Below, piece by piece: positions 51,400 through 53,720 of a stretch of DNA of 64,000 nt; positions within the stretch are counted from its first letter, which is position 1; the number at the start of each line of letters is the position of its first letter. The notes beneath the pieces are model-generated. The model saw nothing but the letters and a program-made list of their open reading frames with translations. It did no database searches and was not told where the DNA came from. The stretch covers positions 248,001 to 312,000 of the forward strand of contig PERI01000001.1 of the NCBI GenBank assembly GCA_002928515.1, read 5' to 3'. The position numbers and the translations under genes are program-made. The stretch comes from Hyphomicrobium sp. (GTDB lineage Bacteria; Pseudomonadota; Alphaproteobacteria; Rhizobiales; Hyphomicrobiaceae).

Positions 51400-51474
51400 T
51401 GGTGGGAGGTGAGGGGATCGAACCCCCGACATTCTCGGTGTAAACGAGACGCTCTACCGCTGAGCTAACCTCCC
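51400..51474 (-). tRNA. tRNA-Val (anticodon UAC)
   Basis: On the minus strand: GGGAGGTTAGCTCAGCGGTA..., anticodon stem CTCGT... with loop TTTACAC, so anticodon TAC, T loop GTTCGATCC, and encoded CCA. It faces hupB and the next gene. Confidence 0.97.
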
Positions 51475-52693: not shown

Positions 52694-52770
52694 GCGGGAG
52701 TAGCTCAGTTGGTTAGAGCGCCGCCCTGTCACGGCGGAGGCCGCGGGTTCAAGTCCCGTCTCTCGCGCCA
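52694..52770 (+). tRNA. tRNA-Asp (anticodon GUC)
   Basis: A 77-nt gene with GCGGGAG/CTCTCGC acceptor arms (one G-T pair), anticodon stem CCGCC/GGCGG with loop CTGTCAC (anticodon GTC), T loop GTTCAAGTC and encoded CCA. It ends just before the tandem repeats. Confidence 0.97.
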
Positions 52771-52784
52771 TTATTTCGCTCACG

Positions 52785-52874
52785 GTGTCTGATCCTCGCT
52801 CCGCTCGGGACACCTCCGCGTGGGCGCGGCTCGCCGCGGCGCCCCTTGGGCGCGCGGGCCTATGGCCCGAAGTG
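52785..52874. repeat. Four-stem-loop repeat, copy 1
   Basis: A 90-bp unit with four stem-loops. SL1 pairs GTGTC with GACAC (52785-52813). SL2 is CGCGGC-tc-GCCGCG (52825-52838). SL3 is GCGCCC-ctt-GGGCGC (52839-52853). SL4 is CGGGCC-tat-GGCCCG (52855-52869). It ends GAAGTG. It differs from copy 2 at 2 of 90 positions. Confidence 0.85.
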
Positions 52875-52885
52875 TTTTTAGAACC

Positions 52886-52975
52886 GTGTCTGATCCTCGC
52901 TCCGCTCGGGACACCCCCGCGTGGGCGCGGCTTGCCGCGGCGCCCCTTGGGCGCGCGGGCCTATGGCCCGAAGTG
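52886..52975. repeat. Four-stem-loop repeat, copy 2
   Basis: A second copy, 101 bases after copy 1. The two changes lie in the stretch after SL1 (T to C) and in the SL2 loop (tc to tt), so every stem is intact. Confidence 0.85.
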
Positions 52976-52989
52976 GTTTTCGCAAACAC

Positions 52990-53080
52990 GCGGCTGATCC
53001 TACGCTTCGCTTCGGGCCGCTCCGATGGGGCGGCGCTTGCGCCGGGCGCCCTTGGCGCCGCGGACCGACGGTCCGAAGTG
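52990..53080. repeat. Four-stem-loop repeat, diverged copy 3
   Basis: A 91-bp diverged copy in which each stem has changed on both sides. SL1 is GCGGC/GCCGC, SL2 CGGCGC-tt-GCGCCG, SL3 GGCGCC-ctt-GGCGCC, and SL4 CGGACC-gac-GGTCCG. Pairing and loop positions are kept and the sequence ends GAAGTG. This is compensatory change. Confidence 0.85.
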
Positions 53081-53098
53081 GGTTTTATAGATTTGACA

Positions 53099-53186
53099 TC
53101 CCGGATCGCGACGCACGGCGCCGCGATCCGGGACCCATTGTGTGTCTCTGGGTCCCGGCTCTCGCTGCTATGCAGCTCGGCTGGGA
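53099..53186. repeat. Further palindromic intergenic element before nuoA
   Basis: TCCCGGATCGCG (53099-53110) pairs perfectly with CGCGATCCGGGA (53122-53133). A second imperfect hairpin spans 53153-53186 (TCCCGGC with GCTGGGA, and inner GCTGC-tat-GCAGC). Similar palindromes of the 'GGGTCCCGG' type are common between genes of Hyphomicrobiales. It is unlike the four-stem-loop repeats in sequence. Confidence 0.7.
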
Positions 53187-53351
53187 TGACAGTAGGTAGA
53201 TACGGCGAACAGACGCTTTGCAGTTGGCTGACAAAGTTGCGCTGCACATGGCGGTGGGTTAACACAACGAGATGCCGTAGCGGCTGGTCGATGTTTCAAA
53301 CTTCGACATGCGCAGGCGCGGCGGGTGCGTGTGTCATTGCAGCGAGACGAC

Positions 53352-53720
53352 ATGACCGATCTTCTTTTTACGCAGTATCTGCCGATCGTAATTTTTCTCG
53401 GCGTGGCGCTGTTCATTGGCGCAGCTCTGATGCTCGCGCCGTTTTTGATTGCGGTGAACAATCCCGATCCTGAGAAGGTCTCGGCGTACGAATGCGGCTT
53501 CAACGCCTTCGACGACGCGCGCATGAAATTCGACGTGCGGTTCTATCTCGTCTCTATTCTTTTCATTATTTTCGATCTGGAAATCGCATTCCTGTTTCCG
53601 TGGGCGGTAGCATTCAAGGAAATTGGCGCGTTTGGATTCTGGTCCATGATGGTGTTCCTGGGCGTACTCACAGTTGGGTTCATCTATGAGTGGCGGAAGG
53701 GTGCGCTCGAATGGGAGTGA
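53352..53720 (+). CDS. nuoA: NADH-quinone oxidoreductase subunit A
   Basis: A 122-residue membrane subunit of complex I. The family motif [44 protein letters not shown] contains the conserved Cys and acidic residues. The ATG at 53352 overlaps no other gene, and the frame before it is inside the repeat region. It overlaps nuoB by 10 bases. No clear promoter is visible in the repeat-filled upstream region. Confidence 0.97.

Follow-up and report, generated by a model that had tools for sequence, protein, structure and literature searches.

A dispersed multi-hairpin element of Hyphomicrobiaceae with covarying stems, arrayed in tandem between tRNA-Asp and nuoA of Hyphomicrobium sp.

In the genome of Hyphomicrobium sp. 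(contig PERI01000001.1), three related units stand in tandem between the genes for tRNA-Asp and NuoA, and each can be drawn as a row of hairpins whose arms differ between units and nevertheless remain complementary. The locus raises the question of what maintains this pairing, and of what kind of element the units represent. It was studied here within a window of 64,000 nt, by which we mean the whole stretch of DNA that was analyzed (positions 248,001–312,000 of the contig). A preliminary description of the window had reported the copies at 52785, 52886 and 52990, with sequences and coordinates that proved to be correct. It had likewise placed them accurately between tRNA-Asp and nuoA, but had treated them as a feature of this locus, which is only one site of a dispersed family. 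The gene order tRNA-Asp, element(s), nuoA is common to nine other genomes of two genera, among which the number of copies varies. The array begins 8 nt past the 3′ end of tRNA-Asp, a fixed distance from which co-transcription with the tRNA appears plausible. A coding repeat was rejected, as a single reading frame is not maintained across spacings of 101 and 105 between units. Table 1 lists the features of the array. Directly 3′ of it, at 53095–53192 of the window, lies a different palindromic repeat (GACATCCCGGATCGCG...CGCGATCCGGGA, then ...CTGGGATGACAG).

Table 1. Parts of the tandem array and its neighboring genes, in window coordinates.
Feature	Position	Strand	Basis
tRNA-Asp (GTC); array adjoins its 3′ end	52694..52770	+	ARAGORN, Rfam RF00005
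8-nt spacer ttatttcg, T-rich with CG at its end; usual 5′ junction of the family	52771..52778	+	Flank profile
Copy 1, multi-hairpin element	52779..52874	+	Covariance model R1, 95.3 bits
Copy 1 SL1, GTGTC/GACAC, 4-nt bulge TGAT, upper CC..GC..GC..GG	52785..52813	+	Sequence, alignment pairs
Copy 1 mini-helix TCC/GGG, near-invariant in the family	52815..52824	+	De novo RNAalifold; 99.2% of cells paired
Copy 1 SL2, CGCGG(CTCG)CCGCG	52825..52838	+	Sequence, alignment
Copy 1 SL3, GCGCCC(CTT)GGGCGC	52839..52853	+	Sequence, alignment
Copy 1 SL4, CGGGCC(TAT)GGCCCG, then AAGTG	52855..52869	+	Sequence, alignment, terminator scan
Copy 2, recent tandem duplicate; 5′ end AGAACCG in place of CTCACG	52880..52975	+	Model R1, 77.2 bits
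Copy 3, diverged; every stem replaced two-sidedly	52985..53080	+	Model R1, 92.6 bits
Copy 3 SL1, GCGGC/GCCGC, bulge TGAT	52990..53020	+	Sequence, model R1
Copy 3 SL2, CGGCG(CTTG)CGCCG	53031..53044	+	Sequence, model R1
Copy 3 SL3, GGCGCC(CTT)GGCGCC	53045..53059	+	Sequence, model R1
Copy 3 SL4, CGGACC(GAC)GGTCCG, then AAGTG	53061..53075	+	Sequence, model R1
nuoA, gene downstream of the array	53352..53720	+	NCBIfam

In the array the unit spans about 96 bases and runs from CTCACG through SL1, a TCC/GGG mini-helix, SL2, SL3 and SL4 to AAGTG; across the family its size ranges from about 75 to 130 bp. SL1 consists of a lower helix, a 4-nt bulge (TGAT) on the 5′ side and an upper helix, the loop of SL2 is of the CTTG type, and short conserved tags (CTCACG, CTCCGnnGGGG and AAGTG) link the abutting hairpins. 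De novo RNAalifold analysis of 15 copies recovered SL1, the mini-helix and SL2 to SL4. To this result a closing stem was added by hand, in which the outer CAC is able to pair with the final GTG (81% of cells paired). The four stems per copy noted in the preliminary description were therefore present, but its unit lacked the true start at 52779 and the AAGTG end, and it had missed the upper helix of SL1 and the mini-helix. A shorter subtype of about 78 nt, with a reduced SL1 and an SL3 of the form GGGTCGCCTTGCTCCC, was observed in copies L058, L071, L080, L243–L247 and G071; it sits after tRNA-Ser and ffs, and a TC/TC internal loop recurs in its SL1 and SL3.

Copies 1 and 2 share 96% identity over 98 nt. 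They had been described as differing at 2 of 90 bases (52785–52874), neither of them in a stem. The count is right and the C-to-T change at 52933 lies in the SL2 loop, but the T-to-C change at 52916 of copy 2 falls in the TCC/GGG helix, where it turns T-G into C-G. Copy 3 is only 63% identical to copy 1, yet it scored 92.6 bits with model R1. The sequence of copy 3 contains all four of the reported two-sided stem changes, except that its SL1 is one pair shorter, so that part of that change is an indel.

Folding energy did not distinguish the single copies from shuffled sequences (z of −0.8 to −1.4 as RNA and −1.1 to −1.3 as DNA), and copy 3 has a minimum-energy fold other than the four-hairpin form; the case for the fold consequently rests on covariation. 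In the 15-copy alignment, 19 of the 27 pairs found de novo showed two-sided changes. A covariance model built from these copies gathered 138 copies, 126 of them distinct, in which 91.4% of pair cells were paired (68.2% after shuffling), 821 cells carried two-sided changes (268 after shuffling) affecting 30 of 35 pairs, and the covariation score was 0.442, compared with 0.112 in shuffled alignments and no more than 0.054 when the register was slid. Since this alignment was fitted to the model, its percentages are biased upwards; a hand-picked set and a model-free hairpin search concur, the latter with 442 of 506 hairpins perfect and 64 with one mismatch, against approximately equal numbers in shuffled copies. 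Chance, in the sense of accidental palindromes in GC-rich sequence followed by tandem duplication, would agree with the ordinary folding of single copies. It is refuted by a covariation that on every measure lay above each of the 500 shuffles, and above every slid register, together with model E-values in other genomes that reach 1e-11, and we attach practically no weight to it. The conserved fold with compensatory change in every stem, as first proposed, is thus borne out far beyond chance by the covariance model and the count of covarying pairs that had been suggested as a check; copies with most stems broken, which had been named as evidence to the contrary, did not occur in the 126-copy alignment. 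Where the preliminary description went on to a folded RNA or extruded DNA, the fold stands, but covariation alone cannot separate the two. Its interpretation is accordingly supported in part: it was right on the conserved fold and too narrow on what the element is.

The covariance model detected seven copies in the same genome at E ≤ 1.2e-4. They occupy five sites, namely the array with its three copies, the 23S-5S spacer (C6), rpoA-rplQ (C3), a position after tRNA-Ser (C1:661961) and the leader of ffh (C2), the last gene being named by its translated sequence, without a family search. The interval from ffs to dnaX holds a further, weak copy (C4, E of 0.94), and the rpmI leader a degenerate one. 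All of these sites adjoin genes for translation, the signal recognition particle (SRP) or RNA polymerase. Beyond this genome, copies were found in 22 of 22 Hyphomicrobium genomes, with E-values down to 1e-11, in 59 of 103 genomes and 14 of 25 genera of Hyphomicrobiaceae, and in two genomes of the order outside the family; for the candidates scored, no match at E ≤ 1e-4 was obtained in a sample of 248 other genomes of the phylum. At least 1–12 copies were detected per genome; scoring covered a limited number of candidates in each genome, so that all copy counts are lower bounds. Tandem arrays also occur in other genera, for example with a 98-base period in L144. Metagenome-assembled contigs labeled as Gammaproteobacteria and Intestinimonas (L110 and L121) carry the core motif, and are probably mis-binned or chance matches.

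Within one genome, copies at different sites are up to 85–91% identical and the similarity of their flanks is close to background, which indicates dispersal. The copy in the rpmI leader occupies an identical place in 18 Hyphomicrobium species, and was absent from the readable rpmI leaders of other genera. At this orthologous site SL2 occurs as CGGCGC, CGCCGC or CGCGC, SL3 as GGCTGC, GGCCGC, GGGCGCG or GGCCAC, and SL4 as CGGACC, CGGGCC or CGGCTC; in most species the partner arm matches perfectly, so that stems were replaced on both sides in place. Neither the 23S-5S spacer nor the rpmI leader yielded a clean empty site or a target-site duplication, the element-free orthologous spacers being diverged throughout. 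The rpmI leaders of other genera (L183–L206) contain a conserved hairpin, GCCGCCCGGCGGGGCATGCCGTGGCGGCTTT, upstream of rpmI, which is possibly a leader attenuator or terminator.

Selection on a single RNA strand is expected to leave isolated stem mismatches in which G-U far exceeds A-C. In the model alignment, leaving aside the CAC/GTG stem, 28 G-T and 20 A-C mismatches were counted, an excess that was not significant (p=0.31), and the model-free method gave 13 and 10. The tRNA stems at the same loci, used as a control, gave 34 and 0, a somewhat generous comparison because ARAGORN itself favors G-U. As G-T shows no clear excess over A-C, the pairing looks like complementarity at the level of DNA and not like that of a wobble-tolerant RNA. 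Near-equal numbers are what neutral decay of palindromes or correction by template switching would give; they weigh against an RNA role, although a role that needs very stable stems could still fit them.

Template switching between the arms of a palindrome can also yield two-sided changes, and for hairpins multi-base compensatory changes within one event are documented (PMC8794818). The covariation might then be mainly mutational, with switching in or between palindromes during DNA replication rewriting one arm in the absence of any selection for the fold. The perfect Watson-Crick pairing of stems, the small number of intermediates, the lack of a G-U excess, the replacement of whole stems at one site in the rpmI leader, and the presence of duplicate copies that supply templates all agree with this explanation. 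The conservation of loops and tags (the CUUG-type loop of SL2, TCC/GGG and the 5′ bulge) argues for some constraint on form. Inverted loops would be the signature of such switching events. We consider a mainly mutational origin a real possibility, somewhat short of even odds, and one that can hold together with the reading of the element that we prefer.

The placement of the copies is polar. In the flanks of 129 copies, the 5′ side is T-rich at −8 to −3 and then reads CG, and the 3′ side shows nothing comparable. In the sampled set, 31 copies begin 7–12 nt past the 3′ end of a tRNA in the sense orientation (Asp, Ser, Val, Thr, Leu, Tyr, Ala or Gly), and no tRNA 3′ end lies within 20 nt of the other end of the element. 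Another 20 copies begin 1–6 nt past a stop codon, again without a corresponding peak on the opposite side, and further sense sites lie behind ffs (the SRP RNA gene) and in the 23S-5S spacer. The exceptions are the rpmI and ffh leaders, in which the element runs opposite to the gene. Because one early search query contained tRNA-Asp, counts of genomic context are biased wherever queries with a tRNA contributed to them; a sample found through the core motif alone was therefore counted separately, and 9 of its 39 loci lie 7–9 nt after a tRNA. The tRNA-Val at 51400–51474 of the window is inverted in comparison with relatives and has no element beside it; in relatives L043 and L144, tRNA-Val stands in sense and is followed by the element.

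Such placement would suit an RNA function as well, in which the element forms part of the sense transcript of the preceding tRNA, SRP RNA or mRNA and is kept as a boundary at the transcript 3′ end, for instance as an exonuclease barrier, a processing site or an aid to termination. The sense polarity, the flush spacing past tRNAs and stop codons, the translation-linked sites of the genome itself (tRNA-Asp, tRNA-Ser, 23S-5S, rpoA-rplQ, ffs-dnaX and the rpmI and ffh leaders), the conserved loops and bulge, and the terminator-like score of SL4 with its T-run in copies 1 and 2 are consistent with such a role. It is at odds with the mismatch counts, so different from those of tRNA stems, with the antisense copies of rpmI and ffh, with folding energies near those of shuffles and with a family profile devoid of a downstream T-tract; Rfam, moreover, gave no relevant match to the element even at E up to 5. 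On balance we regard an RNA function as rather unlikely. The narrower proposal of an array of terminators was rejected, since terminator-like matches numbered 2 against 1.6 in shuffled sequence and the family has no T-run.

As a whole, the array is best explained, with a probability of roughly 0.6, as copies of a small, dispersed palindromic element of Hyphomicrobiaceae that is old, of a mobile type and partial to gene 3′ ends. Its dispersal to unrelated flanks, its tandem arrays, its polar placement at 3′ ends and in the 23S-5S spacer, and its near-perfect pairing despite stem change are directly observed. We infer that the element spreads, or once spread, as a non-autonomous mobile element recognized as folded single-stranded DNA or as a cruciform. 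It would land in a short AT-rich spot just past the end of a gene, where it may do little harm, and multiply locally by tandem duplication; its stems might later persist through selection for the folded shape, through the correction of imperfect palindromes by template switching, or through both. The rpmI copy, with paired stems across 18 species, is not what would be expected of a purely selfish relic. Further points against this reading are that the site comparisons gave neither a clean empty site nor a target-site duplication, that this genome has no Y1 transposase or reverse transcriptase, and that the sense bias at gene 3′ ends fits an RNA function too. A more specific version, in which a bacterial mobile element recognized by its shape targets transcript 3′ ends in one orientation (8 nt after tRNAs and 1–6 nt after stop codons), with insertion coupled, for example, to an RNA 3′ end or a folded single strand, seems to us unlikely.

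Covariation is normally taken as proof of a functional RNA, and here it is found in a dispersed repeat whose mismatches are indifferent to the strand. The family is thus a test case for separating RNA selection, DNA-hairpin selection and template switching. The constant position of its copies, shortly after tRNA ends and stop codons, suggests a targeting rule that is open to direct testing in Hyphomicrobium strains that grow in culture, such as H. zavarzinii, in which a copy (L123) is present.

Among known systems, the element resembles REP, BIME and REPIN sequences in being short, GC-rich, palindromic, non-coding, intergenic, clustered and near gene ends. REPs are palindromes of 20–40 bp, mostly with a GTAG or CGTC tag (PMC3733652, in which a Rickettsia palindromic element (RPE) inside a gene is also noted), and REPINs, which are associated with RAYT genes, consist of inverted pairs (PMC3116915). 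Mobilization of the present element by a RAYT (Y1) transposase would account for intergenic GC-rich palindromes in tandem clusters near gene ends. Y1_Tnp, however, was absent from 24 of the 26 genomes searched, including the genome of the array, and present in two, so this route does not apply. Moreover, the unit of about 96 bp has 4–5 hairpins, variable stem sequences and direct, not inverted, arrays, with CTCACG and AAGTG in place of the GTAG/CGTC tag, and it was detected in few copies per genome, where REP or REPIN sequences usually exceed 100. A REPIN-type origin is accordingly very improbable. Help from a reverse transcriptase was rejected as well, because the enzyme is missing from the genome of the array and from 17 of 23 genomes searched (present in six). 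Targeting of the kind used by group IIC introns, considered because some sites have a hairpin plus a T-tract, was also rejected: the element falls far short of the size required, no reverse transcriptase is present in the genome, and at many sites there is no terminator.

RPEs are dispersed palindromes of about 100 bp in Alphaproteobacteria that insert inside reading frames and share sequence, whereas the present element lies outside genes, flush with 3′ ends, and its copies share shape more than sequence. Elements of the ERIC, NEMIS and RIME types are imperfect palindromes of about 100 bp between genes in transcribed regions, and it is a conserved sequence that defines them; in the present family the stems are free to vary, and what is retained is the multi-hairpin plan. 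The double-hairpin elements of fungal mitochondria are mobile clusters of hairpins located close to gene ends, and their stems remain paired although they vary; they are mitochondrial and have two hairpins, and no common sequence is expected. No described equivalent was found in a literature search of incomplete coverage, with subscription journals mostly outside it. The element is apparently an undescribed family within a known kind of dispersed palindromic repeats, and we regard its multi-hairpin plan, its conservation of shape over sequence and its sense-oriented position, flush with the 3′ ends of genes, as unusual. A second, REP-like family of the type GCGCTGGCGGCCGGCTCc...GGAGTCGCCAGCGC lies beside elements in L043, L004, L005, L034 and L049, and in L043, at about 1310–1370, it is apparently inserted in SL1 of a copy.
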